Shown piece after piece: positions 1 to 18,763 of a stretch of DNA of 34,899 nt (its first letter is position 1; each line of letters opens with the position of its first letter). The position numbers and the translations under genes were made by a program. A model generated the notes under the pieces. The model was given only the letters and a program-made list of their open reading frames with translations. It searched no databases and was not told the DNA's origin. The DNA is taken from the NCBI GenBank assembly GCA_011620275.1, contig WOZK01000026.1:44599-79497 (forward strand). The letters are read 5' to 3'. Source of the stretch: Candidatus Omnitrophota bacterium. GTDB taxonomy: Bacteria > Omnitrophota > Gorgyraeia > Gygaellales > Profunditerraquicolaceae.

Positions 1-265
1 GTGTCAGGCTGACGTCTTCCGCCGCTTTGACATTATTGACCGTGGAAGACGATATATCCTCTATATTCACGTCTCCTGCAGTCGAAATTACATTGCTTAG
101 ACCGGAATCGCTTACTTCCGATACGGTTATACTCCCGGCTTCGGCGCTTAAATCCGCAAGCGTGGAACCACTGATATGTGTCAGGCTGACGTCTTCCGCC
201 GCTTTGACATTATTGACCGTGGAAGACGATATGTCTTCTATATTCACATCTCCTGCAGTCGAAAC
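1..265 (-). repeat. 177-bp (59 codon) tandem coding repeat in the surface protein
   Basis: gtgtcaggctgacgtcttccgccgctttgacattattgaccgtggaagacgatat occurs at 1-55 and again at 178-232, offset exactly 177 bp; near-identity continues ~30 bp further. Confidence 0.9.
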
Positions 266-2968
266 GATATCTGCCAGATCAGAGCCGGTTACCATATTTA
301 TGATAATACTTCCGGCCAAAGCTTCTATGCCGCTTATCGTGCTGTCTTCCGAGTCAACTATACGTATATCCGTCTCCGCGGACAGATCGGAAGCCGTTAA
401 ATCCTTGTTATTCTCTATATGCAGCGTTTCTCCCGCTGCTATCCTGGACAGCTTAACATTCTCGTTTAAGCCGGCAATTATCAATCCTTTATTCGCCTGG
501 GAATCGGTAATACTCGATCCTTCACCAAACTCCAGATTTTCAATCCTTGTTGTCATACCCTCTGTGGTAAGTTCGGTAGCTTTCGGCAGGGTCAAGGCTT
601 CCTGCTCTGTCCCCAGTTGAACATCAACACCTTCGGCATGCTGCTGGCCGGGCGCGCCTGTTCCGGCGGCAAAGATGATCGCCGGGTCTTCGCCGGCTGC
701 TTCCTCCTGGACTTCATCAAGAGACTTAATAGCAGCGTAATCCTCCGATACTTTGCCTTTAGCTATGTTGGCGGTATCACTTGTAAAGGCGATAACCCGC
801 GTACCCTCCAGCTCGCCTGCGGGATTATCCCGAAAAGCGCTGCTTATCAAACAAAGGGACATCGACTCACAGATGTATTCTGGTTCAACGACATTCTCCT
901 GCCCGATGCCGGCGTCGCCTTCCTGCAGCTGTGCAAGCAGGAACTGGGCGGGTTCATAGTTTGAAGTATGCTCCAATGCCAGTGAACATAACTCCAGGGC
1001 CTTATCGAACTCCCCGATCTTGCTGTATGTTTCTCCCATAAGAGTAATCAAAGAAGCATCCACCAGATTGCTTAAAGGGACGCCTTGTTCCGTATTAAAA
1101 GCCAGTTCGAATTCTTTTGCCGCTTCGGTATATTTCTCCGACGCCTTGGCATAATCACCGTTAGTCTCGGCGCTCTCTGCTTCCAGGAATTTCTGGTTTC
1201 CTATGGACATTGAATATGCCGAATAGATCTGTTTGCTCTCTGTGCTTTCCGTAACCGTCTCAGCTTCAAGCAGTTTTCTGCCTGCATCCAGCCAGGAATA
1301 TCCTTTATCCCACTCCTGGCTTCCGGCTTTGCCGCCGGCAAAACTCTGTCCTGCCTGCTTTAATACCGCGGAATGAGCCGATTCAGAACCTCTTGTCAGA
1401 CCGTCTGCATTATTATCCGTCAGGAAGTCGCTATCTTGAGACTCCCGGAACGTTTTTACTCCGAGGTAATAGAATGCGGCTTCGTATTCCGCTTGTGTGG
1501 CGTCTTTACCCAACACATTGCTTATATTTGCGATGGTTTGCGCGGGAATGAATAAAGTTTGACTGTTTGTATCATAAGAAGCGCTAAAGGTATCCCTTGG
1601 GGTCAATGAAGAGAAAGAAGAGAAGGAAAAACTTGGTATATTGTTGGTTACCACTATATTGAAAGAAGGGACGGTTGGCGCGGTATTCGCGAAGACATAA
1701 TTAAAAGAAGACGAAAGAGTGGAATAAACGAACGAAAAGCTTGTGGAAGGAAGCGCAAACGAACTCCCCGCTGAATAATCAGAAAGAAAACTGCTGAAAT
1801 TGCTGTAAATACTGCTTTTCCCGGTAGAACTCAGAGAACTGGGCGCGGAACTTAAATAGTAGGGAGAATAGTCGGAATATCTGTTGGCTGAATACCAGGA
1901 AGAGCTCCCGGAAGGAATGGCGCTGCTTGTCCCACTGCTCCTGCCTGTCGAGAAACTACTGCTTCTGGAGCCGCCCCAGGATACCCCGCCGTATGACCCG
2001 CTGCTGCCTGATGACGCCTGGGCACTGGCAGCCGCGCCCCAGCTATATCCCCAAGCGATGGCAATGCTGCTCCCTTTTTTATTAAGGAAAGCCGCCAATT
2101 CCGGCAAAGACCTCGAGATTGATAGTATTTCGCACCCTTTATTAAGGTAAGCGAAAAGGACGGAGGAATCATTCCCAATATCGGCCTTTCCGGCTGTTGT
2201 ATCAATGACGACCCTTTTACCGGTGCTGGCATCTTTAATTGTCAATAATGCGTGCCCTATATTTCTCGCTTTATCCTTAATTAATACGATCTCGGGATCA
2301 AGGCCGAGGCCGCTGGCGGCTCTAAACAAATAAACGCTTCTATCCAAACAATCGGTAGGAATGCCTAAAGTAGCTACAACAGCCTGCCGCGCTTTTAAGC
2401 TGTTAAGATCGCAGTAAAAACTATCCGAGGTGGGTTGATATACGGTTGATGCCATTTTCCGCAATTCATATAGAAATGCGGTCATCTCTTGATACGGTTG
2501 ATTTTCTGCTGATTTTTCAAATGATACGGTAGGCTGATAGCGGTATTGCCGGACCGGGTTATCTATGATACGGTTGGTTTCCTGTCCTATGGCTCCATTG
2601 CCGGTGCTTTCCTCCAGCGGGTTCTCTGTGATACGGTCAGAGCCTTTCCCTTGGTATGCAGTATCACTCTTGATACGGTTAGAAGCAACAACTACATCAT
2701 AATTTACTATTGTATTGGTTATTTCGGCGTGGGCAAAAGGAAAAAGAATAGATGAGAAATTAGTATATATCTCATTAAATGTATCAAATAGACTTTTCTT
2801 TACAGGTGTCTGGTTTTCTTGGGATGAAGGAATATTACGGTTGGCGGTAACAGCCGGGGGCAGAATAAAATCCGTTCTGGCGGCCCAGGTAACTTCCGAG
2901 AAAGCGAAGATACCGGCGACTGCCAAAGCGACAGCTTTAAGCCAGAGTTTCCCCCTCCAACTACTCAT
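1..2968 (-). CDS. Large exported/surface protein, C-terminus truncated by the window edge: signal peptide, papain/transglutaminase-like Cys-His-Asp module, Ser/Tyr-rich linker, TPR-like region, 59-aa beta-solenoid repeats
   Basis: Minus frame from ATG at 2968 (MSSWRGKLWLKAVALAVAGIFAFSEVTWAA...) with a GGGGGAG RBS. I read every codon to position 2 and found no stop (989 codons). Contains TDCLDRS...IGHALLTI...VVIDTTAG (possible C/H/D triad) and YAKASEKYTEAAKEFELAF (TPR-like). Missing from the ORF track because no stop lies in the window. Confidence 0.9.
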   Translation of the reverse strand, partial: MSSWRGKLWLKAVALAVAGIFAFSEVTWAARTDFILPPAVTANRNIPSSQENQTPVKKSLFDTFNEIYTNFSSILFPFAHAEITNTIVNYDVVVASNRIKSDTAYQGKGSDRITENPLEESTGNGAIGQETNRIIDNPVRQYRYQPTVSFEKSAENQPYQEMTAFLYELRKMASTVYQPTSDSFYCDLNSLKARQAVVATLGIPTDCLDRSVYLFRAASGLGLDPEIVLIKDKARNIGHALLTIKDASTGKRVVIDTTAGKADIGNDSSVLFAYLNKGCEILSISRSLPELAAFLNKKGSSIAIAWGYSWGAAASAQASSGSSGSYGGVSWGGSRSSSFSTGRSSGTSSAIPSGSSSWYSANRYSDYSPYYLSSAPSSLSSTGKSSIYSNFSSFLSDYSAGSSFALPSTSFSFVYSTLSSSFNYVFANTAPTVPSFNIVVTNNIPSFSFSSFSSLTPRDTFSASYDTNSQTLFIPAQTIANISNVLGKDATQAEYEAAFYYLGVKTFRESQDSDFLTDNNADGLTRGSESAHSAVLKQAGQSFAGGKAGSQEWDKGYSWLDAGRKLLEAETVTESTESKQIYSAYSMSIGNQKFLEAESAETNGDYAKASEKYTEAAKEFELAFNTEQGVPLSNLVDASLITLMGETYSKIGEFDKALELCSLALEHTSNYEPAQFLLAQLQEGDAGIGQENVVEPEYICESMSLCLISSAFRDNPAGELEGTRVIAFTSDTANIAKGKVSEDYAAIKSLDEVQEEAAGEDPAIIFAAGTGAPGQQHAEGVDVQLGTEQEALTLPKATELTTEGMTTRIENLEFGEGSSITDSQANKGLIIAGLNENVKLSRIAAGETLHIENNKDLTASDLSAETDIRIVDSEDSTISGIEALAGSIIINMVTGSDLADIVSTAGDVNIEDISSSTVNNVKAAEDVSLTHISGSTLADLSAEAGSITVSEVSDSGLSNVISTAGDVNIEDISSSTVNNVKAAEDVSLT

Positions 2969-3025
2969 TTCTCCCCCTACACACCCTTGTGATACACCCT
3001 TAAAACACCCCCTAATTAACAAAAA

Positions 3026-3053
3026 GACCGAGCTTTTGATACAAAGCCCGGTC
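3026..3053 (-). terminator. Terminator-like hairpin in the 5' leader of the 2968 gene
   Basis: Minus strand GACCGGGCTTT-gtatca-AAAGCTCGGTC followed by TTTTTG (T-tract at 3021-3025), about 60 nt upstream of the ATG. Confidence 0.7.
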
Positions 3054-3068
3054 CATAAAGAGAGAATA

Positions 3069-3116
3069 ATCCTTTCTTGGATCCGTGGCTTTCCTATTCT
3101 AAGCTCTCAGAATAGG
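3069..3116 (-). promoter_or_regulatory. Candidate structured leader RNA element (copy A)
   Basis: Minus strand CCTATTCT-gagagctt-AGAATAGG + AAA + GCCACGGATC + caag + AAAGGAT; same layout as copy B at 5949-5997. Confidence 0.55.
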
Positions 3117-3182
3117 CTTACTTAGATGTAAGTTTACTGCAAAACGATTAAAAAATGTTTTGAAAAACTTTCACCTACTTAA

Positions 3183-3211
3183 ATTATAATGTCCGGCCAG
3201 GAAATTGTCAA
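3183..3211 (-). promoter_or_regulatory. Sigma70-type promoter for the surface-protein gene
   Basis: Minus strand TTGACA (3211-3206), 17-nt spacer, TATAAT (3188-3183). Confidence 0.8.
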
Positions 3212-3719: not shown

Positions 3720-5624
3720 ATGCTTACAACGCGCCAAATCAACCGTATCATATCTCAAAATCTTATGCGCCGGAAACCGCTGATACACTTGTTGGCGTTT
3801 TTTGTTCTGGCCTGCGGACTGCCTGCCGTATTCGGCAATATAGAACCCAACTCCGCCTATTTGACCCTCCTGCAGGAAAAGATATACTCCCAGCTTATTT
3901 ATCCCCCTAAAGCGGCTGTCCAGAATCTGGAAGGGATCGTTAAAATCAAACTTCTTTTGTCAAAAGACGGCAGGATCAAAAACATAGATATTGCCCAATC
4001 TTCAGGATATCCTTTACTGGATGCCGCCGCGATCTTAAGCGCGCGCAACGCCAGTCCTCTGCCGATCCCTCAGGGATACAACAGCAGCAAGGATCTCCAG
4101 GTCATTGTCCCAATAACGTACAAGAATTCTGCCGCCGTTCAAGACATCCGCCGGGATATAAATGTTTCTTCAGAAGTCGGTTTACCGCCCAGCCTGCCTT
4201 TCAACAAAAACCAACCGGGCTCTGCGCAGCCGAAGGCAAAGCCGCCGTCATCTTCCCAGGCAACTAGAACCGCCGGCTCGGCTGTCGAACCAAAAGTTCT
4301 GCAGAAACCTGTAACCCAGGAAACGGAAGACGAAATTAACCGTTTTATGAACATCGCGGTAAAGAGCAACGAACCCTCCCAGGTTGCCAGGGAAGAAATA
4401 GAATTGGCGCAGATAAAAGTCATGGAGGCGGTAAGGAATATTTATCCGGCCATAAAGATACTCGGATACAATACTACCGGTGAAGTTTATAAAGTGGAAT
4501 ACGAAGAACGGGAAGCCAAACTTCAGATCGATCAACCTATATATTACGGGGACCGGCTCAGGAATACCTACCTGCAGGCAAAGACCAACTTGGATATTAC
4601 CAAGAAAAACTATGACCGCCTGCGCATAGATACGATGAATAAAACTGAAACCGCTTTCTACAACCTCGTGGCGGCAAGAATGAACCTCGCCGCCAAAGAC
4701 GCCATTAAAGAAGAGGCCAATGAGACAGTGGACCAGGTACAAAAGCTGTTCGACGCCGGGATGATAATCCCGCTTGAGCTCATCACCGTCAAAAACTGGT
4801 ATAATCAGATAATATTCCAGATGAACGGGATAAAACAGGATTTGTTCATGGCCGAACTGACCTTCAAACAAGTCCTTAACGTCCAAGACAATCCTTTTAT
4901 AAGCACCGACGAGCTGGAAGCCAGGCGCCTGGATCTCAAGCTTGAAGACTGCATTAAAGCCGGGTTACAGCACCGGCCGGAGCTGGCTTTGAGCGAATTA
5001 ATGATAAAATTCCAGGAATACGGACAGCGCATAGAAAAAGGCAAGAATTCCTTTACCGTTGATCTAAGCGGTTCATACGGTTATTACGAAGGCGCCTACA
5101 AAACCGAGTCGATGAGGGACGCAAATAACTGGTATGTGGGGCTGAAAGTCAGTAAACCCTGGGGAGCCAGCACGATCAACAGCTCGGTCACCTCCGAATC
5201 CAGCCAGCCGAGATTCGGACAGACCTCGCCCACGAAATCCACCACCGGGAACTTCGAGCTTAACGTTATGGATAATATAAAGCGCATTTACGACAGAAAA
5301 AAGTCGGATATAGATTTGCACCGCTCCATCAGCGATAAAGACCAGACGGTAAAAACCATAACCTTCGAAATTCAGGACGCTTTCCTTAATTACCAAAAGG
5401 CGCTCCTCCAATTGAATGCCACAGAAACAGAAATGGAATTCCGCAGAAAAGAGGCGGAAGTGATAAAAATACGCTCCCGGGTCGCCGAAGTAGCCCTCTC
5501 CGAATCAATGGAGTCGCTCTACAATCTTTGCGACGCCCAGACCAAGTATTTCCAGGCTCTTGCCAATTATCATATATCTCTGGCCAATCTGAAAAAAGCC
5601 TGCGGTTACGGAATAAGAATCTAA
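3720..5624 (+). CDS. TolC-family outer membrane efflux protein with an N-terminal TonB C-terminal-like domain
   Basis: Signal peptide (start may be 3765), then YPPKAAVQNLEGIVKIKLLLSKDGRIKNIDIAQSSGYPLLDAAAILSARNASPLPIP (TonB_C-like), then a long TolC/OEP-type coiled-coil repeat region. Confidence 0.85.
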   Translation: MLTTRQINRIISQNLMRRKPLIHLLAFFVLACGLPAVFGNIEPNSAYLTLLQEKIYSQLIYPPKAAVQNLEGIVKIKLLLSKDGRIKNIDIAQSSGYPLLDAAAILSARNASPLPIPQGYNSSKDLQVIVPITYKNSAAVQDIRRDINVSSEVGLPPSLPFNKNQPGSAQPKAKPPSSSQATRTAGSAVEPKVLQKPVTQETEDEINRFMNIAVKSNEPSQVAREEIELAQIKVMEAVRNIYPAIKILGYNTTGEVYKVEYEEREAKLQIDQPIYYGDRLRNTYLQAKTNLDITKKNYDRLRIDTMNKTETAFYNLVAARMNLAAKDAIKEEANETVDQVQKLFDAGMIIPLELITVKNWYNQIIFQMNGIKQDLFMAELTFKQVLNVQDNPFISTDELEARRLDLKLEDCIKAGLQHRPELALSELMIKFQEYGQRIEKGKNSFTVDLSGSYGYYEGAYKTESMRDANNWYVGLKVSKPWGASTINSSVTSESSQPRFGQTSPTKSTTGNFELNVMDNIKRIYDRKKSDIDLHRSISDKDQTVKTITFEIQDAFLNYQKALLQLNATETEMEFRRKEAEVIKIRSRVAEVALSESMESLYNLCDAQTKYFQALANYHISLANLKKACGYGIRI

Positions 5625-5872: not shown

Positions 5873-5901
5873 TTGAAATTCTTGTGGAAATAGTGTATAT
5901 T
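5873..5901 (+). promoter_or_regulatory. Sigma70-type promoter
   Basis: TTGAAA 5873-5878, 17-nt spacer, TATATT 5896-5901. Confidence 0.65.
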
Positions 5902-5928
5902 TTATGTGTTAGTTAATACTTTTAAAAA

Positions 5929-6017
5929 GTATTGCTTATCCTTCGATATGTCCGGCGTATCCCCTACACCGGACAGTAGCCACGGATCGTAAAGGATAAC
6001 GTATGAGCAATACGTTA
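5929..6017 (+). promoter_or_regulatory. Candidate structured leader RNA element (copy B) with mutually exclusive pairings
   Basis: TGTCCGG(5949-5955)...CCGGACA(5969-5975) + gta + GCCACGGATC(5979-5988) + gt + AAAGGAT(5991-5997). GTATTGCTTATCCTT (5929-5943) can pair with AAGGATA...AGCAATAC (5992-6013); the alternative hairpin is TAACGTAT(5997-6004)/ATACGTTA(6010-6017). Confidence 0.55.
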
Positions 6018-6033
6018 TTCATTGATTTTGTCG

Positions 6034-6077
6034 TCCGGGTTACCTTGAGAAGGAAAAAGGTAAAACCCGGATTTTTT
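6034..6077 (+). terminator. Intrinsic terminator-like hairpin directly upstream of the start codon
   Basis: TCCGGGTTACCTT (6034-6046) / AAGGTAAAACCCGGA (6057-6071) followed by TTTTTTC. Confidence 0.75.
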
Positions 6078-6096: not shown

Positions 6097-7914
6097 ATGT
6101 ACTGCAGAAAGCCATACAGATTGTGGAAAATAGCCTTTTTAGCCTTTTTCTTCGTGGCTTTGACTTCAGTTAACTCCCCCGCTGCCGTAGAAGAATATAC
6201 CCCCGAATATCTGAACGGCAAAAGCTACTGGGATTATATCAACAAGGTCATCACATCCGGGTATTCCCCGGATGTTTTCGTTAAGATAGACCGCCGTAAT
6301 ATGGAACGGGTCGAAAAGCAAAAAGTCATAGATTCGGTGCTTAGATACGCCACAGCGGCGGCGCCGATCTCCAGTTCAGGCGTGGACCTGGCAGAATACC
6401 TGCGTCAGGAAGCCTCAGCCAATATAACCAAGACCGTGGTGGATAACCGCCAGCAGCGGGAAAAGAACGCCGCCGCCAACGGGGAATTCAATTACATACC
6501 CACCAGCGACGGGGGCACGGATTATTTTACCGACGGTCTGCTAACCACGAGCGTGAACCATGTGAAGATAGACGAACTCGGCAACCGAAGTTTGAGCTCC
6601 ATGCGCAACATGAAATACAACGATGACCGCCTTCTGGTAAGCTACACCGGAGAAAAACTCGACAATCTCGATAATAAAACTACGTTCTCCTGGACCGGCA
6701 GTTATCTGCCGGGTTCTTTATTTTACGCCACCGCCGAAACCAACGCCTATAAGAGCTACGCCACCTATAATATGAAAGAAGTGGACCCGGGCGGAAATAT
6801 TACGGACACGCAATGGACGGCCAACAGCTACAACCAGAATAAGAAATTGGTGCTTTCTTTCAGCCAGAAAACTACGGACAGCGTTTACGGCACGAGCGAA
6901 TTCACCCGCTCCAACATCGAGTATGCCGACGGACATATAGACCGTCCTTCCTATTATTACGAAGAAGGCGTGGGCACGGACGGGCTTTCCTATACCTCGG
7001 AACGCAAAGACATACAGTATAACGGGCGCGGACAGGTAACCTATTTCGACGACACCACGCGGGTGGACTACAGCAGTGTGTCGGCTGAACCGGAAGCCGG
7101 GGAAGGAAACATCGTCACCACCCATACCACAGCCAGCTTTAATTACCGCGAAGACACCCCTCATCCCTTCGGAGAAGACATCGAACCTATGGCCATGCGC
7201 CTTGAATCCAGCAGCGTTACCTCGACGGTAACCAGGGCCGACGGATCTTTCCAGAAGGATTACACGACGACAAAATACGTGTATGACCAGGACCTCAAAC
7301 TTACAGGCGCCTCCAGTACCACTACCTTCAACGGCCAGGTTGCACAATGGTATCAATATACAGACTCCGAAGGCAACATCCTGACCAAAAAAGAAGACGG
7401 CACCTATTCTTACATCAATGACGACGAAGAGGAGGTCGGCGTAGATGCCGCGGACGTGATCAGCACGCTTAAAGACGGAGATACCTATAACGGCACCAGC
7501 GCCACCGAGATGGAAATACTCTACGGTAAACCGATGGCAAAGTCCACCACTACCACGACAAGCTATACCAATGCCGATGACGGATGCAACTATAAAACCG
7601 AGACTTCTACCGTCACATACAACAACGCCCTTGTGCGCAATCTACAGCGTGTCATCTCCGGCACGGAAGAAAGCACGACTTATCAGCCTTATCTCGATCC
7701 GGACAAGGAACACCTGGAAACTACCCATATAGTCACGACCTACACATACGATCCTGACACCGCCAACCTTACCGGAGTCTCCGGCAGCGGCACAAAAACA
7801 GGCTATATATATTCAAGCACTACCGGTTGGCATGACCAGTATACAAACGACATAACCAAGAAATATGAAATAATCCTCGGAAAACCGGTAATGATTGGAT
7901 ATTCCGATAAATAA
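6097..7914 (+). CDS. Exported Thr-rich repeat protein (YD-like), unknown function
   Basis: ATG 6097 after GGGGAAAGG; signal peptide MYCRKPYRLWKIAFLAFFFVALTSVNSPAA; repeated TTxYxYDxxxxLTGxSSxxT and EIxxGKP motifs. Confidence 0.8.
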   Translation: MYCRKPYRLWKIAFLAFFFVALTSVNSPAAVEEYTPEYLNGKSYWDYINKVITSGYSPDVFVKIDRRNMERVEKQKVIDSVLRYATAAAPISSSGVDLAEYLRQEASANITKTVVDNRQQREKNAAANGEFNYIPTSDGGTDYFTDGLLTTSVNHVKIDELGNRSLSSMRNMKYNDDRLLVSYTGEKLDNLDNKTTFSWTGSYLPGSLFYATAETNAYKSYATYNMKEVDPGGNITDTQWTANSYNQNKKLVLSFSQKTTDSVYGTSEFTRSNIEYADGHIDRPSYYYEEGVGTDGLSYTSERKDIQYNGRGQVTYFDDTTRVDYSSVSAEPEAGEGNIVTTHTTASFNYREDTPHPFGEDIEPMAMRLESSSVTSTVTRADGSFQKDYTTTKYVYDQDLKLTGASSTTTFNGQVAQWYQYTDSEGNILTKKEDGTYSYINDDEEEVGVDAADVISTLKDGDTYNGTSATEMEILYGKPMAKSTTTTTSYTNADDGCNYKTETSTVTYNNALVRNLQRVISGTEESTTYQPYLDPDKEHLETTHIVTTYTYDPDTANLTGVSGSGTKTGYIYSSTTGWHDQYTNDITKKYEIILGKPVMIGYSDK

Positions 7915-10104: not shown

Positions 10105-13100
10105 ATGTCGATTTCCAGGCTCGCGATACACCGCCCGGTGACAACCTTGATGGCTTTCCTCGCGCTGATACTGCTTGGATTGATATCCTGGTCCAGGCTG
10201 CCGCAGGAGCTTTTTCCCTCAATAGCCTATCCTCAAATAACCGTGGTCACTTCCTACCCTAACGCGGCCCCGGAAGAAATAGAGAATCTCATAACTAAAA
10301 TCATAGAAGAAAGCGTGGGGACGGTAAACAACGTCAAACGCATCAGTTCGATCTCGCGCGAAGGGCTGTCCCTGGTAATGGTCGAGTTCAACTGGGGCAC
10401 CAATATGGACTTTGCCGCCTTGAACGTGCGCGAGAAGATAGACCTCATCAAAGAGCGCATCCCGAGAGAATCGCAGGAACCGGTGGTAATGAAATACAAC
10501 CCCTTCGACCTGCCGATAATGAACCTGGCGGTGACCGGCCCGTATTCTTCGCTTGAACTGCGCGAAATGAGCCGCAAATACATCAAGGACGGCATCGAGA
10601 AGGTCGAGGGCGTGGCCTCGGCCGTCATCACCGGCGGCGACGAGCGCGAGATCCTGGTGGAAATAGACCAGCCGAGATTAAGGGTCTCCCAGATATCCAT
10701 AGTCTCGGTAGTGGACAGCATAAAATCAGCCAACATAAATTACCCCGCCGGCACCCTTAAAGAGAATTTCTACGAATATCTTATCCGCACAATGGGAGAA
10801 TACCAGAAGGTCTCGGAGATAGCCGAGACCCCCACCGCCCTTGAGGTCCCGGAAGAGGCTGCCGAAACCCTGCAGCAGAAGGAGAAACTCGAAAAAAAGG
10901 CGCGCAGGCTGGTCTTTCTCAAGGATATCGCAAAAGTAAAAGACAGCGTCAAGGAAACATCGAGTATTTCCCGTTATAACGGCAAGGAAAGTATCTCCAT
11001 CGTCGTCCGCAAACAATCCGGCAGCAATGCCCTGAAAGTCGCCCAGGGCATACGCAAGGAGATAACGAAATTACAACAGGAAAAACTGCCCAAAGGCGTG
11101 AATATCCAGGTGACCTACGACCAGTCGCAGTTCATAAACGAAGCCGTCTCCAACGTTACCGGTTCTGCTCTGCAGGGGGCATTGCTGGCTTTCTTGGTGC
11201 TGCTTTTCTTCCTGCGGGAGATAAAGTCTTCTTTGGTCATCACCTTCTCCATCCCCATTTCCATCATGACCACCCTGTTTCTTATGTATTGTTTTAAGAT
11301 AAATATGAATATGATGTCCTTAGGAGGCTTGGCGCTCGGCATAGGCATGCTGGTGGATAACTCCATCGTGGTCATCGAAAACATCTTCCGGCACCGGCAG
11401 ATGAACAAAACCTTCAAAGAGGCCTGCGTGGACGCCTCGGAAGAGATGCTCGCGCCTATAATCGGTTCCACGTTGACGACCGTTGCGGTCTTCCTCCCTT
11501 TCGCCTTCGTCTCCGGTATCGCCGGCCAGATTTTCAAACAATTGTCCCTGACCATCACCTTCGCCTTGACGGCTTCCATCCTGGTAGCCATAACTCTGGT
11601 CCCGGTTCTCATCTCCCTTTCCATCTGGAGAAGGGACGGCCGGGCCGCGGCAGAACCCCGGCAGAGAAATATCCCGGTTTTCGACAAGCTGGAAGAAGCG
11701 ATCGTCTGGGGAATAGACCGCAAGGAAAAAGTGGTGGTGCTGGCCGGCGTCCTGTTCGTCGTAAGCCTCGGAATACTCGCTATCCAGGAAAAACAATTTA
11801 TGCCGAAAGTGGACCAGAGACAATTCATCATCAAGATCGACATGCCTCCGGGGACCACCCTTAAGGCCACCAACGCTATAGTGCACAGGTTTGAGTCCGC
11901 CCTACTCGGATTCAAGGAGACACAAGACGTCACGGTAAACATCGGCTCAAGCGAGGACAAAAATTCCCTGGAAGAGACGGCGGTACAAACCCTCGGCAGC
12001 CATCAGGCGCAGATACTCGTCAACCTCAAGAAGAAAGCCAGAGGGCTGCCCTTTCTGCCTTCCGGCATACGCTCCACCGACGAAGTAATCCAGCAGTTGA
12101 AAAATACCGCCGAAAAAGGCGACCTTGAAGGCGCCTCGGTGGAATACGTTGCGCAGGAGACGTCTCTCGGTTCGGCGGTAGAACAGGGAGCGCCTATCGC
12201 GATAGAAATAAAAGGCCCGCAGATATACCGGCTTACCGATATCGCCGCCGGACTGCAGTCCGACCTGCGCAAGATAAAAGGTATCTACGGCATAAAGAAC
12301 AGCATGCCTGCCGCGAGCCCGGAAACAAAACTGCATATTCTGAAAGACAAGGCGTCTTTATACGGCCTTTCCGTGCGCGACATAGCGGTTACCGCGCAGG
12401 TGGCGCTGAAGGGCTATGTCGCCACGAAATTCAAGGATAAAACCAATCAGGAGGATATCGACATCCGTATCCGCCTGCGTCACGAGGACCGGAGCGAATT
12501 AAGCAACCTGCGCCGCATCCTCATCCATTCCCCGCTGGGATTCGACATCTCCATGTCCGACGTGGCTTATCTGACCAAAGGAACCGGGCCCACGGAAATT
12601 AAACGCATCGACCAGCAGAGAAGCATCGTCATCAGCGCAAATGTTTATAAACGGGGGATCGGGGAGGTCAACCGCGCAATAGACAAGATCATAGCGGCAA
12701 GAACGGTTTCCCTTCCCAAGGAATACGCTATCGAGCTGGCCGGCGAACAGCAAAAAATGCAGGAGTCGTTCCAAAGCCTGGCCTTCGCCCTTATACTGGC
12801 GATCACCCTCGTGTATATGATCATGGCCGCCGAATTCGAATCCCTCTGGCAGCCGCTGTTGATAATGTTCACCGTCCCTCTTTCCCTTATAGGCGTGGCT
12901 TTCTTCCTTTTCATAACCAATACCCCTTTAAGCGTGGTCGCCTACCTGGGCATCATCATGCTGGGCGGCATTGCCGTCAATAACGGTATAGTGCTTATAG
13001 CATTCATCAACGATCAGTATAAACAGGGGTATTCCCCTTACAACTGCGTCATAGAGGCCAGTAAAACCAGGCTGCGCCCGATCCTGATGACTTCTTTAAC

Positions 13101-14106
13101 TACTATTCTCGGCCTTCTGCCTCTGGCGCTCGGCATCGGAGAAGGCGCGGAATTACAGGCCCCTATGGCCCTGACCGTAATGGGAGGACTGCTTTCCGCC
13201 ACTTTTCTTACCCTGGTGGTTATCCCTTCGATATTCTTGATAGTCGTGGAAAGGATATCCGGCGTGCAGGCCAGGCGGCCGGAGCAGGCTCCGGTAAAAG
13301 ACGAACCGCTTATCAACCCGGAACTGGAGACGCTATTGAAAGCCAGAGAAGGACATAAAGAACAAACTGCTTTACCGCAGGCCGCTTGCCCGCCGGAAGA
13401 ACAGCCGTCATCCGAGCAGACACAGCGCCCCGTGATCAACGACTTGAAAAAACGGATACCTTTCGAGGAGGTGCCGGTACCGGCAGCGCACCGCCTGCCT
13501 CCGATTACCCCGTCCACAGCTTATCAGCCCGACAAGCCTTCTTCCGAAGCCGCGCCGGCGCAGAATCAACCCGGCGAACAGGGGATTTTGCCGGCGGCCC
13601 CCTCTTTCTCAAAAGAAGATACCGGGATAAATCCCATACTTCCGGGAAAAGAATCGGGGAAACCTCCGCAGGAAAACAAGGGAATCCCGTCCAAAACACC
13701 TCCGGACAATACGCCTGTCATACAAACGGAGAAAAAATCTCCTCCGGCGCAGATAAAAGAAGAGAAGAAAGAACCGGCTAAAGCTTTCCCGGTATCCAAA
13801 CCTGAACTGCCGCCGGAAGAAAAAACGCCTTCTCTTCCCCGTCCTGCGTCCGTAAAACAAGAGGCTCCCCGGAAGGCCAAGGTAGAGATGCCGCCGCCCC
13901 CGGCTATGGAATATAATATAAACCCGCGCCAGAAAGACCTTCTGGAAAGATTGAAGAGCATAAAGAAGATAACGCGGAAAGAATACGCTGAGATGTTCAA
14001 CGTTTCCATTCCTACCGCGGCGCGTGATTTGAAGGAATTGATGGATAAACAATTGCTGAAGGCCGAAGGGCCGCTCGGGCCGGGACGCTGGTACGAACCG
14101 GTATAA
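10105..14106 (+). CDS. RND efflux permease with a C-terminal Pro-rich linker and winged-helix DNA-binding domain
   Basis: Typical AcrB/MexB-type RND features (MSISRLAIHRPVTTLMAFLALILLGLISWSRLPQELFPSIAYPQITV; GGLALGIGMLVDNSIVVIENI; RPILMTSLTTILGLLPLALG). After the last TM (~aa 1055) comes a ~210-aa Pro/Glu/Lys-rich stretch, then NPRQKDLLERLKSIKKITRKEYAEMFNVSIPTAARDLKELMDKQLLKAEGPLGPGRWYEPV. Confidence 0.9.
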   Translation: MSISRLAIHRPVTTLMAFLALILLGLISWSRLPQELFPSIAYPQITVVTSYPNAAPEEIENLITKIIEESVGTVNNVKRISSISREGLSLVMVEFNWGTNMDFAALNVREKIDLIKERIPRESQEPVVMKYNPFDLPIMNLAVTGPYSSLELREMSRKYIKDGIEKVEGVASAVITGGDEREILVEIDQPRLRVSQISIVSVVDSIKSANINYPAGTLKENFYEYLIRTMGEYQKVSEIAETPTALEVPEEAAETLQQKEKLEKKARRLVFLKDIAKVKDSVKETSSISRYNGKESISIVVRKQSGSNALKVAQGIRKEITKLQQEKLPKGVNIQVTYDQSQFINEAVSNVTGSALQGALLAFLVLLFFLREIKSSLVITFSIPISIMTTLFLMYCFKINMNMMSLGGLALGIGMLVDNSIVVIENIFRHRQMNKTFKEACVDASEEMLAPIIGSTLTTVAVFLPFAFVSGIAGQIFKQLSLTITFALTASILVAITLVPVLISLSIWRRDGRAAAEPRQRNIPVFDKLEEAIVWGIDRKEKVVVLAGVLFVVSLGILAIQEKQFMPKVDQRQFIIKIDMPPGTTLKATNAIVHRFESALLGFKETQDVTVNIGSSEDKNSLEETAVQTLGSHQAQILVNLKKKARGLPFLPSGIRSTDEVIQQLKNTAEKGDLEGASVEYVAQETSLGSAVEQGAPIAIEIKGPQIYRLTDIAAGLQSDLRKIKGIYGIKNSMPAASPETKLHILKDKASLYGLSVRDIAVTAQVALKGYVATKFKDKTNQEDIDIRIRLRHEDRSELSNLRRILIHSPLGFDISMSDVAYLTKGTGPTEIKRIDQQRSIVISANVYKRGIGEVNRAIDKIIAARTVSLPKEYAIELAGEQQKMQESFQSLAFALILAITLVYMIMAAEFESLWQPLLIMFTVPLSLIGVAFFLFITNTPLSVVAYLGIIMLGGIAVNNGIVLIAFINDQYKQGYSPYNCVIEASKTRLRPILMTSLTTILGLLPLALGIGEGAELQAPMALTVMGGLLSATFLTLVVIPSIFLIVVERISGVQARRPEQAPVKDEPLINPELETLLKAREGHKEQTALPQAACPPEEQPSSEQTQRPVINDLKKRIPFEEVPVPAAHRLPPITPSTAYQPDKPSSEAAPAQNQPGEQGILPAAPSFSKEDTGINPILPGKESGKPPQENKGIPSKTPPDNTPVIQTEKKSPPAQIKEEKKEPAKAFPVSKPELPPEEKTPSLPRPASVKQEAPRKAKVEMPPPPAMEYNINPRQKDLLERLKSIKKITRKEYAEMFNVSIPTAARDLKELMDKQLLKAEGPLGPGRWYEPV

Positions 14107-14242
14107 CAACCGGTAAATTGCGTTACGGAGATAACGCTACGCCCCCGGCAGAATTACGTCTTCCCTCCGTCCGGCATCGATACGACGGGAACGCTTGGGC
14201 TCCCGCAACAAAACATTATCGCTGAACAAGAACGGGCTTAGT

Positions 14243-17200
14243 ATGAGTTTACCGGGGTTCTCGGTCAACAGGCCGACCTTCATATCGATGCTTTTCGCCG
14301 GCATCATCATAATCGGGGTGATCGCCCTGAAGATGCTGCCGGTGGAGATGATGCCGAACATAAGTTACGGCGATATCACCATAAATATAGACGTGCGCGG
14401 CGGCATCCCCGCTTCCGAGATAGAGAACCGCATCTCCAAACCGGTGGAAGAAGCGGTCAGCTCCGTTTCCCATCTAAGAAACATCCTCTCCATATCCAAA
14501 GAAGGCAACGCCACCATTATCCTGGAATTCGAGCCCGGCACGGAAATGAATTTCGCCGCCCTGGAAGTGCGCGAGAAATTCAACCGTATCCGCAACAAAC
14601 TCCCCAGAGAGATAGAAAAACCCGTCATCGCCAAATATGAATATATGGACGTGCCGATAATGATATTGGCCGTTACCAGCGACCGCCGTTCCCCGGAACA
14701 ACTGCGCAAAATAGTCGATGAGCGGATAAAAGACCGCATTCAAAGGATAGAAGGTATAGCCAGGGCTGAAGTGGTCGGCGGCCGCGAAGGCAAGATCATA
14801 ATCGAGATAGACCAGTACCGCCTGCAGGCATACCAGCTTTCCATAAATAGAGTGGTGGACATCATAAACCTTAACAATTCAAACCTCCTGGCCGGAGAAA
14901 TTAAAAGGGCCAAGGACAAATATCTGGTAAGGACCATCGGAGAGCTGGAAAGCCTGGAGGACATCGCCAACCTGGCGGTGGCGACAACCAAAGAGGGCTC
15001 GGTGGTCCGCCTGAAAGATATAGCAAGCATCAAGGATTCTTTTCTCGAACCCACCGCCTTTGCCAGGCTGAACGCCCAACCGGTAATCTCCATTTATATC
15101 CAGAAAGAGTCGCTGGCAAACACGGTGCAGATCTCCAAGGACGTGAACAAGGAAATAGAAAACCTGAAACGCAGCCTGGAGAGCGATATAAAGCTTTCCT
15201 TGATCTCTAACCAGGCGGACATAATCCAGCAAGCCGTCAATCAGGTAAATTCCTCCCTGATCACCGGAGCCCTGCTGGCGAGCTTGATACTTTTCATCTT
15301 TCTCTGGGACATCCGGCTTGTATTCATTATTAGCTCAAGCATTCCTCTCTCCGTGATACTCACCTTCTGCCTGATGTATTTCTCCAAACTGACACTCAAC
15401 GTAATGACCTTGAGCGGCCTGGCGCTCGGAGTAGGCATGCTGGTGGACAACGCCATCGTGGTTCTCGACAACACCTTCAAGAAACGCGACGATTTTCTGG
15501 CGCAACCGGGCAGGTTCCCGGAAGACATGCCGATGAAGGAGATACAGAAGAGGCTGGCGGTGGAGGCCAGCGAAGAGATGTTCCTGGCGATAGTGGCCTC
15601 CACTTTTACCACCATCGTGGTCTTCCTTCCCCTGTTTTTCATCAATCCGGAGATCAAGCTCCTTTACAGCGGCATCGCCCTGACCATTACCTATTCCCTG
15701 CTGGCATCCCTATTCACGGCAATAACCCTAATCCCCCTGCTGGCGTCGCGGTTGAAGTTGAAAGACCCGCGCCTGCCGCCGCCGGTGCCGGAAGAATCCT
15801 TGTCGAAAGATACCGTGACGGCGGGAACGGAAAAAGAAAAAATGAAAGAACCCGCAGGAGGGTTCCTGGAAAAACTATACAAGATATTCATCGCCCTGGT
15901 GCTGTTTCTGCGATATCTGGTGGTCTTCCTGGTGGTAGTGGCACTGCTGCGCGTAGTGCAGGAGGCTTCCAAGCTGGAGCAGGAATTCATCGGCATCGCC
16001 GAACAGAATAAATTCACCATTTTCGTGGAGATGCCCACAGGGACGAAGATCGAAATAACCGACAAGATAATCGCCGGCATAGAATCGTTCGTGGCAAGGA
16101 TGCCGGAAGTCAAGAACGCTACCTCCAAGGTGGAGCCCTGGTCCGGAAAGATCTTCGTGGAACTTAAACCGCTGGCGGAACGCAAGAAATCAACAGGCGA
16201 ATTCATGAACACGCTGCGCCCCTACACGGACAAGTTCTACCAGAGCCACCGGGCGTTCGTCTATTACGAGGAACCGCAGGAGGTCGGCACCAAAGAAATC
16301 CTGCTGGAACTCTACGGTCACGACTACGAGGTGCTGAAAAGCCTTGCCATCCAGGTGGCCCAGCGCCTGCAGACCATACCGAAATTCACCGATACAAAGA
16401 TCCGCATGCGCGAGGGCCGCCCGGAGATACAACTCATTCTCGACAAGCGCGAAGCCGCGATGTTCGGGCTTACCGCAGAGGAGGTGTCTCTGGCGCTGCA
16501 CACCCATATGCGGGGGCTGGTGGCCACGCGCTTTCGCGGCAACCGGGAATCGTTGATAAAAACCCGGGACCCTAACTTCAACCCGCAATGGCATTTCAAC
16601 GGCAGCCCAGCCTTGAACAACGGGACTTCCCGGGACGGCGCTGAAAAGGCGGAGGAAACGGAGACGATCGTCCGCATCGGAGAGGAATTCCGCCACACGC
16701 GAGACGACCTGCGCAGGATAACCCTGGTGACCCCTTATGGAGATATGGTTTTTCTGAACCAGTTGACCGCGTTCAAGGATGAATACGGCCCAAGCGAGGT
16801 ATGGAGAAAAAACAAGTCGCGCATGGTCCAGGTAAGCGCCAACACAGGCGGCGTCGCGCTGGGAACGGCGGCCATTAAAGTGAAAGAGGCGATCAAGGAT
16901 CTCAAATTCCCGAAAGATTATTTTTGGCAATTCGGCGGTAATTATGATAAAATGATACAAAATCAGAAGGAGCTTTACTGGGCGTTGATAATCAGCCTGG
17001 TGCTGGTCTATATGATACTCGCGGGGCTCTTTGAATCGCTTACGGAACCTTTCATTATTCTATGCACGGTGCCGATGGCGGCGATAGGCGCAGTCACGGC
17101 GCTGAGGCTGACCGATAAACCAGTGGGGACCGGGGTACTTATCGGGGCAATAATGCTCGGCGGGATAGTCGTCAACAACGCGATCATACTTGTAGACCGC

Positions 17201-17488
17201 ATAAATTTCCTGAGGAATAACTTTAAGGACAAGTATTCCCAGCGGGGCGGCGCCAAGAAAGCGGTGATAGACGCATCCTTCGACAGGCTCAGGCCGATCA
17301 TGATGACATCTTTAACTACTATACTGGGGCTCATCCCGATGGCCCTGGATAAAAGCGAATCGGCCAACTTGTGGTCGCCTCTTGCGATAACCGTTATCGG
17401 AGGGCTTTCGGTCGCGACTTTTCTCACTCTTTTCGTAATACCTTGTGTTTATCTTGTTTTCCGGGATTTCTGGCTGGTTAAACGATAG
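14243..17488 (+). CDS. Second RND efflux permease
   Basis: MSLPGFSVNRPTFISMLFAGIIIIGVIALKMLPVEMMPNISYGDITI; GLALGVGMLVDNAIVVLDN; RPIMMTSLTTILGLIPMAL. Track ORF begins 14195 with TTG. Confidence 0.9.
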   Translation: MSLPGFSVNRPTFISMLFAGIIIIGVIALKMLPVEMMPNISYGDITINIDVRGGIPASEIENRISKPVEEAVSSVSHLRNILSISKEGNATIILEFEPGTEMNFAALEVREKFNRIRNKLPREIEKPVIAKYEYMDVPIMILAVTSDRRSPEQLRKIVDERIKDRIQRIEGIARAEVVGGREGKIIIEIDQYRLQAYQLSINRVVDIINLNNSNLLAGEIKRAKDKYLVRTIGELESLEDIANLAVATTKEGSVVRLKDIASIKDSFLEPTAFARLNAQPVISIYIQKESLANTVQISKDVNKEIENLKRSLESDIKLSLISNQADIIQQAVNQVNSSLITGALLASLILFIFLWDIRLVFIISSSIPLSVILTFCLMYFSKLTLNVMTLSGLALGVGMLVDNAIVVLDNTFKKRDDFLAQPGRFPEDMPMKEIQKRLAVEASEEMFLAIVASTFTTIVVFLPLFFINPEIKLLYSGIALTITYSLLASLFTAITLIPLLASRLKLKDPRLPPPVPEESLSKDTVTAGTEKEKMKEPAGGFLEKLYKIFIALVLFLRYLVVFLVVVALLRVVQEASKLEQEFIGIAEQNKFTIFVEMPTGTKIEITDKIIAGIESFVARMPEVKNATSKVEPWSGKIFVELKPLAERKKSTGEFMNTLRPYTDKFYQSHRAFVYYEEPQEVGTKEILLELYGHDYEVLKSLAIQVAQRLQTIPKFTDTKIRMREGRPEIQLILDKREAAMFGLTAEEVSLALHTHMRGLVATRFRGNRESLIKTRDPNFNPQWHFNGSPALNNGTSRDGAEKAEETETIVRIGEEFRHTRDDLRRITLVTPYGDMVFLNQLTAFKDEYGPSEVWRKNKSRMVQVSANTGGVALGTAAIKVKEAIKDLKFPKDYFWQFGGNYDKMIQNQKELYWALIISLVLVYMILAGLFESLTEPFIILCTVPMAAIGAVTALRLTDKPVGTGVLIGAIMLGGIVVNNAIILVDRINFLRNNFKDKYSQRGGAKKAVIDASFDRLRPIMMTSLTTILGLIPMALDKSESANLWSPLAITVIGGLSVATFLTLFVIPCVYLVFRDFWLVKR

Positions 17489-17503
17489 GAGGGGCAAATA
17501 AAT

Positions 17504-18763
17504 ATGGGCTCTAAATTATTGAAACTTCTGCTTATCCTGGTATTGGCCTTTGTAATGTGGGGAGTCTACCAGACAGGCATCAAGCTTTCCACGCAAAAGA
17601 CTCCTTTCATACAGGATATGATAAGCAAAGTGAAGAAAGAACCCTCTCCGGCCCAGAAGCAGAACGCGGCAACACCGGACCAGCAAGAAGAACCGCCCGC
17701 GCAGCAGCAGGCGCTGTCCGAACCCGCGCCTATCATGGTGCGGGTGTTCAAGATGAAACCCACCGATTTTCACGATTTTCTCCCGGTAATGGGTACGGTA
17801 AAAGGCAAAACGGAAATTGAACTGAAATTCGAAATTCCGGGTGTAATCAAGAAAATCTATTTTAAAGAAGGCGAAAAAGTGAGAAAAAGCGCGCTGATCG
17901 CCTATCTGGTCCCGGATGACGCTAAACTAAAGCTGAAATACGCGAGGAATAAATTCATATCGGCCCAGGCAGCATACGAATCCTCCTTGAAGAAATACGA
18001 GATAAACCAGAAGCTGTTCGAGGTCGGGGCGATCATCAAATCCAAAATGGAAGAAGCCGAACTTGATGCGAGAAGCGCCAGGGCTCAGGTAGATACGGCT
18101 AAAGCCGAAGAAGACCTGGCAAAGAACGATTTTCGCAAAGTCTTCCTCTACTCCACAAAAGACGGGGTCATGGGGCCGAGAGAAGCCGAGGAAGGGGAAT
18201 TCGTGACTTCCCAGGATAAAATGGGCACGCTGTTCGAAATCAGTGAAGTTTACATTGAAGTGGGTATCGTCGAAAGAGACATAAATAAGGTCCGGCTCGG
18301 ACAGAAAGCCAGCATATACGTTGACGCTTACCCTACCAGGGTGTTCGAGGGAACGGTGGACAGCGTCTATCCCATAATAGAGGGAAAAAGCAGGACGCTC
18401 ACCGCCAAGATCAAGGTGGACAACAAAGAAGGTCTGCTTATGCCGGGTATGTTCAGTAGGGCGGAAATAAGCATAGCGGACCTGAAACAAGTTTTGATAA
18501 TCCCTACTTCCAGCATCATGCAAGCCGGCGGCGGAAAGATACTGGTGCCGGTCGTCCCCAAGACGACGTTGAGGACCGGAGAAGACGGCATACAGACCGG
18601 AACCGTTCAGATACGCAGGGTCGTGCAGGGATATGCCACAAACGACTATGTGCAGGTGGCGCAGGGGCTGGGAGAAGACGATCTGATCATCATAGAAACG
18701 CAGGGCGAATTGAAGGATAACGCCAAGGTCAAGATTGTGGGGACGGAAGAGCTGGGCCTTTAA
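17504..18763 (+). CDS. RND membrane fusion (periplasmic adaptor) protein, HlyD-like
   Basis: N-terminal anchor, lipoyl/hairpin region GVIKKIYFKEGEKVRKSALIAYLVPDDAKLKLKYARNKFISAQAAYESSLKKYE, beta-barrel VYIEVGIVERDINKVRLGQKASIYVDAYPTRVFEGTVDSVYPII. Confidence 0.92.
   Translation: MGSKLLKLLLILVLAFVMWGVYQTGIKLSTQKTPFIQDMISKVKKEPSPAQKQNAATPDQQEEPPAQQQALSEPAPIMVRVFKMKPTDFHDFLPVMGTVKGKTEIELKFEIPGVIKKIYFKEGEKVRKSALIAYLVPDDAKLKLKYARNKFISAQAAYESSLKKYEINQKLFEVGAIIKSKMEEAELDARSARAQVDTAKAEEDLAKNDFRKVFLYSTKDGVMGPREAEEGEFVTSQDKMGTLFEISEVYIEVGIVERDINKVRLGQKASIYVDAYPTRVFEGTVDSVYPIIEGKSRTLTAKIKVDNKEGLLMPGMFSRAEISIADLKQVLIIPTSSIMQAGGGKILVPVVPKTTLRTGEDGIQTGTVQIRRVVQGYATNDYVQVAQGLGEDDLIIIETQGELKDNAKVKIVGTEELGL

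Follow-up and report, generated by a model that had tools for sequence, protein, structure and literature searches.

Streamlined derivatives of the c-di-GMP-I riboswitch probably control two exported-protein genes in an Omnitrophota bacterium

The 34,899-nucleotide stretch of DNA analysed here (the window; contig WOZK01000026.1 of a Candidatus Omnitrophota bacterium) contains two structured leader elements, each 5' of an exported-protein gene (signal peptides were judged by eye throughout), and raises the question of whether these represent a new riboswitch class or a known one in altered form. Copy A lies at about 3021-3131 on the minus strand, within a leader of ~200 nt that runs from the promoter at 3211-3183 to an ATG at 2968, and copy B at 5938-6077 on the plus strand. 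The components that the initial annotation had described for copy A, namely the consensus promoter, the ~200-nt leader and, in 5' to 3' order, a hairpin, AAA, GCCACGGATC (3089-3080), AAAGGAT and a terminator hairpin with its T-run, were all found in the sequence, as was the recurrence of the same layout on the opposite strand in copy B, where GCCACGGATC occupies 5979-5988. The hairpin, AGCCACGGATC and the terminator are common to both copies, whereas AAAGGAT, which had been proposed as a fixed block, sits in the variable P3 loop and is unconserved in relatives. The features of both leaders are collected in Table 1.

Table 1. Positions of the leader features and downstream genes of copies A and B in the window.
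Feature	Position	Strand	Evidence
Copy A promoter, TTGACA-N17-TATAAT	3183..3211	-	12/12 consensus match
Copy A base equivalent to Vc2 G20, G	3117	-	covariance model alignment and sequence
Copy A P2 hairpin, CCTATTCT..AGAATAGG, continuous 10 bp	3093..3116 (3116-3093)	-	fold; R2 match
Copy A P3 5' strand, AGCCACGG, antiterminator	3083..3090	-	sequence, covariance model alignment, folding
Copy A P3 3' strand, CCGGGCU, also the terminator 5' arm	3045..3051	-	folding, overlap check
Copy A position equivalent to C92, U	3043	-	sequence, anchored on CCGGGCU
Copy A intrinsic terminator, stem 3026-3054, T-run 3021-3025	3021..3054	-	sequence, folding
Gene 3' of copy A, large exported protein, extends past window edge	2..2968	-	ORF
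Copy B promoter-like TTGAAA-N17-TATATT	5873..5901	+	10/12 match
AT-rich inverted repeat AATACTTTTAAAAAGTATT, upstream of the copy B aptamer	5915..5933	+	sequence; comparable repeats in the leaders of many relatives
Copy B P1 5' strand, UCCUUC, pairs with 6049-6054	5939..5944	+	pairing in P3-forced fold
Copy B P2, continuous 7-bp helix, large non-GNRA loop	5949..5975	+	fold; covariance model
Copy B P3 5' strand, AGCCACGG, antiterminator	5978..5985	+	covariance model alignment, folding
Copy B P3 3' strand, CCGGGUU, also the terminator 5' arm	6035..6041	+	folding, overlap check
Copy B intrinsic terminator, stem 6035-6070, T-run 6072-6077	6035..6077	+	sequence, folding
Gene 3' of copy B, 605-aa exported protein, ATG 6097	6097..7914	+	ORF

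The comparison with Rfam that had been proposed, including RF01051, missed both copies: nothing in the window reached threshold, and no member of the c-di-GMP clan matched copy A or copy B even at E<=10. The GCAAACC and GNRA parts, already noted as lacking, are missing from both copies as judged by sequence and folding. A match of copy A to the PyrR binding site (RF00515) was rejected, scoring 24.6 bits against a threshold of 54 and having no counterpart in copy B, and the other Rfam matches of copy A at E<=10, to microRNA and sRNA families, were rejected as chance; copy B gave no match to any family at that cutoff. Within the 1.48 Mb genome the string AGCCACGGATC is confined to copies A and B, with one occurrence in each, and it was encountered 50 times in 97 genomes, compared with 3 times for the reversed pattern. 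Riboswitch-like leaders account for about half or more of the matches inspected, the rest looking like chance occurrences in coding sequence, and many of the matches in relatives are textbook c-di-GMP-I riboswitches.

Three forms were distinguished by eye among the leaders. Form 0 is the canonical one (GGCAAAC..GNRA..GGCGCAAAGCCACGG); in form 1 the G21-C46 pair is swapped to C21-G46 with the internal loop and tetraloop kept; and in form 2 P2 is one continuous helix placed directly between G20 and AAAGCC, with the usual internal loop absent and the tetraloop mostly absent (some variants in relatives are still GNRA-capped). Form 2 was counted at 26 loci of relatives, to which L206, from another family, was added by eye, and copies A and B belong to it by layout and architecture; P2 of copy A has neither an internal loop nor a GNRA tetraloop, its loop being GAGC. 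Forms intermediate between canonical c-di-GMP-I and the layout of copies A and B were found among the relatives. The covariance models and searches of related genomes suggested by the initial annotation yielded both further copies and covariation in P2. P2 is 95.8% paired in 14 form-2 relatives, with two-sided (compensatory) changes in 6 of 7 pairs, and covariation over the whole structure was 0.521 versus 0.151 +/- 0.023 for shuffled controls (0/500) and at most 0.112 for slid ones, while 12 further relatives outside the model gave compensatory changes in 7 of 7 P2 pairs and a value of 0.566 versus 0.180 for shuffled controls; both alignments were fitted to the model and are thereby biased towards structure, the slid controls lying far lower. 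None of 20 form-2 RNAs from relatives passed the Rfam threshold, and the best sub-threshold match of most of them was c-di-GMP-I or c-di-GMP-I-GGC.

Further arrangements were observed among the relatives. In L148, L149, L150 and L128:3482-3602 P2 is built differently, its GGAG-type loop being followed by GGATGCGCAAAGCCACGGGAC, and these may be a further variant; L022 and L024 carry, around position 1501, a P3-like AGCCACGGATC with a terminator, apparently without P2. The canonical c-di-GMP-I leaders of L026, L029, L048, L071 and L080 have an extra AAGCCACGG just 5' of P1, which duplicates the 5' strand of P3 and could be a competitor for CCGGGYU. Variant riboswitches are clustered in L111 (G048:C23), where five hits within 15 kb all lie 5' of exported-protein genes, clustered or tandem variant riboswitches are present in G099:C26 and G099:C111 (two of them 57 nt apart), and a PilZ-type gene was noted by eye behind a form-1 leader in L124. 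The gap between promoter and aptamer in many form-1 and form-2 leaders contains a conserved AT-rich inverted repeat resembling TTAAAGACTTTTAAAAAGTCTT (window 5915-5933, L068, L076, L086, L091, L011, L119, L126), and similar A/T-rich sequence is found 3' of the terminators in some canonical leaders (L018, L019).

Two covariance models were built from relatives' RNAs, both without copies A and B and both with E-values that rest on a short calibration. Model R1, comprising five form-2 RNAs, finds copy B at 30.8 bits (E 3e-4 genome-wide) and copy A at 24.1 bits (E 0.017 genome-wide; 4.9e-4 over the window plus L067), these being its sole matches in the genome at E<=1, and model R2, comprising 14 RNAs, finds copy A at E 5e-5 genome-wide and copy B at 20.7 bits. 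Locus L121 (G022) contains a divergent gene pair homologous to the genes of copies A and B, each gene with a c-di-GMP-I leader: that of the A-type gene is canonical (G022:C97:5795-5909, 68.4 bits with RF01051) and that of the B-type gene is of form 1 (C21-G46) and lies above the RF01051 threshold (51.8 bits, L027). The copy B gene product, to which no family was matched in a Pfam search, is 40% identical over 602 aa (E 2e-129) to its riboswitch-controlled counterpart in L121; the copy A gene, homologous at its N terminus to relatives' genes behind canonical riboswitches, matches its L121 homologue at 40% over the N-terminal 83 aa only (E 2e-14). The A-type gene in L111 likewise lies behind a canonical riboswitch. 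On the strength of the matches to models of relatives' variants, the syntenic canonical riboswitches and the intermediate forms, copies A and B are, as judged from sequence, diverged derivatives of c-di-GMP-I (GEMM). What had been put forward as a candidate new riboswitch thus holds up as far as conservation, structure and a terminator switch in the leader are concerned, but not as a new, unrelated class. Simplification of P2 probably arose more than once, since the leader of the B-type gene is of form 1 in some genomes and of form 2 in others, and form 2 includes both C21-G46 and G21-C46 types.

RF01051 riboswitches are present in 59 of 59 genomes searched, and the source genome has two c-di-GMP-I riboswitches elsewhere and four GGDEF matches. 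Three GGDEF proteins were checked, and the R(Y/F)GGEEF and GD motifs are kept in all three; this GD, in place of a substituted version, is that of ordinary diguanylate cyclases. A literature search on riboswitches or c-di-GMP in Omnitrophota found nothing. Elsewhere in the window, a single protein (3720-5624) combines a TonB C-terminal domain with an outer-membrane efflux domain, and two AcrB-type pumps are encoded together with an HlyD-type adaptor in an efflux locus at 10105-18763.

Comparison with the sister species gave identities for copy B of 97.9% in the aptamer, 100% in the terminator, 91.4% in the gene and 85.5% in neighbouring intergenic DNA. Copy B therefore appears to be under selection, its aptamer and terminator being more conserved than its own gene. 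Selection on copy A is less clear from the corresponding values (core 89.1%, upstream leader 98.3%, terminator 96.9%, gene 93.3%), and the differences in its core fall in loops, in the spacer and at one pairing-compatible position of the P2 stem (C to U opposite G). Both leaders fold more stably than shuffled sequences (z -4.2 and -4.4), and no P1 was recognisable in copy A. Pseudoknot candidates were noted by eye, GAGAG/CUCUC in copy A and UAUCC/GGAUA in copy B, each absent from the other copy.

P3, formed by AGCCACGG with CCGGGYU, shares one strand with the terminator, so that by sequence and folding the two are mutually exclusive. The probability of P3 is 1.0 in both copies before the terminator 3' arm is made and 0.02-0.03 in the full leader, the cost of forcing P3 being 3.4 kcal/mol in copy A and 1.5 kcal/mol in copy B, where forced P3 also permits P1 (UCCUUC with GAAGGA). 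The P3/terminator overlap followed by a T-run was seen in nearly all form-2 relatives (not in L119:3928; L118 was left out). As the P3 3' strand is also the terminator 5' arm, an antitermination ON switch is the likely mechanism of copies A and B. By sequence and folding, P3 forms first and the terminator prevails in the full transcript unless P3 is stabilised; a ligand, which for the variant as a whole is most likely c-di-GMP, would stabilise P2 and P3 around G20, A47 and C92, and the stabilised P3 would block the terminator and turn the exported-protein gene on. The layout is shared with the pilM-type 3',3'-cGAMP riboswitch, which, unlike form 2, retains the GEMM P2 architecture. That RNA is an ON switch in which aptamer and terminator exclude each other and ligand leads to antitermination (PMC9262584).

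Position 83 is G in all 38 sequences in which C44 is present. C44 is lost in form 2, where A83 is found in 13 of 19 sequences; C44 is likewise missing from the three remaining A83 sequences, and in copies A and B C44 is absent and position 83 is A and U, respectively. C44-G83 is taken here to be a tertiary contact in Vc2, and the form-2 pattern is what loss of this pair would leave; c-di-GMP-I aptamers are thought to require P2-P3 tertiary contacts for binding. The equivalent pair in Cd1 is G79 with C35, and the Cd1 mutants C81A and A24-26U show no c-di-GMP binding (PMC9262584), A24-26 corresponding in our own reading to the P2 tetraloop. Since these mutants lost binding, RNAs without such contacts may not bind in the known way.

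Key bases predicted in this family are G20, A47 and C92 (Vc2 numbering), and its RNAs have been divided into types by a GNRA or GYRA P2 tetraloop (PMC11218506). All three bases are kept in form-2 relatives according to our reading of the alignment; L147 reads AUA at 47-49, and L188 has a change adjoining C92. In copy A, G20 and A47 are kept and, in the two species of the genus alike, C92 is replaced by U. In copy B, C92 is kept, position 20 is ambiguous, and GUA after P2 reflects either a changed A47 or a one-base shift. The P3 core, GCCACGG paired with CCGGGYU after AAA, is present in both copies, but copy B has GUA for AAA. The resemblance to c-di-GMP-I (RF01051; GEMM-I, Vc2/Cd1/Bc1; CL00126) thus comprises a P2 hairpin followed by AAAGCCACGG, P3 with CCGGGYU, the P3/terminator overlap, association with surface or exported-protein genes and, in relatives' variants, G20, A47 and C92. 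However, copies A and B lack the P2 internal loop (GGCAAAC/GACGC) and C44-G83, fall below the gathering score and differ at position 92 (A) or the A47 site (B), and the GNRA/GYRA tetraloop, receptor-paired in type I, is mostly gone in the variant and absent in both copies. c-di-GMP-I-GGC (RF03167) is the top sub-threshold family for most relatives' variants and is passed by canonical relatives, whereas the variant is without the P2 internal loop and the tetraloop of that family, and neither copy was matched. Form 2 being clamp-free with its contacting bases in place, either binding works differently or the ligand or regulator has changed. Sensing of c-di-GMP by the form-2 variant is likely from its sequence; continued sensing by copies A and B themselves is plausible and uncertain, given C92 to U in A and the altered A47 region in B.

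We consider it probable (roughly 0.6) that copies A and B are streamlined c-di-GMP-I riboswitch derivatives controlling exported-protein genes by antitermination. An independent class that came to resemble GEMM in P3 by convergence would account for the blank Rfam result and the absent GGCAAAC and GNRA parts, but is highly improbable in view of the synteny with canonical c-di-GMP-I leaders and the intermediates, with the covariance model matches and the relatives' sub-threshold clan matches pointing the same way. It is unlikely that both copies are decayed c-di-GMP-I riboswitches that bind no ligand and act as fixed attenuators with a constant read-through fraction: the changed pocket positions in both, the unrecognisable P1 of copy A and scores below all Rfam models would fit such decay, whereas P2, P3, the terminator and the mutually exclusive fold are kept in both, both are conserved in the sister species (B beyond its own gene) and the sole P2 stem change in copy A preserves pairing.

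It is rather improbable that copies A and B, or the continuous-P2 group as a whole, now respond to a different ligand, such as another cyclic dinucleotide, or to a regulatory protein. Retention of G20, A47 and C92 in the relatives' continuous-P2 RNAs and the GD of ordinary diguanylate cyclases in the three GGDEF proteins speak against it, but the clamp contacts are lost across the group, C92U in copy A and the changed A47 site in copy B affect positions expected to touch the ligand (PMC11218506), and natural GEMM variants with altered specificity are known (PMC7266159). We suggest, tentatively, that the continuous-P2 RNAs may be a distinct type that binds a cyclic dinucleotide around G20, A47 and C92 without the tetraloop-receptor and C44-G83 clamps, with the ligand of copies A and B shifted.

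The preferred reading of copies A and B as streamlined c-di-GMP-I derivatives places them in a recurring natural variant that has neither clamp and retains the contacting bases and the terminator switch, which tests which parts of c-di-GMP-I are needed. The variant also points to a gap in current Rfam models, which would overlook part of the c-di-GMP regulon of uncultured bacteria, and it connects a probable c-di-GMP regulon with a large number of exported proteins that are as yet unnamed.
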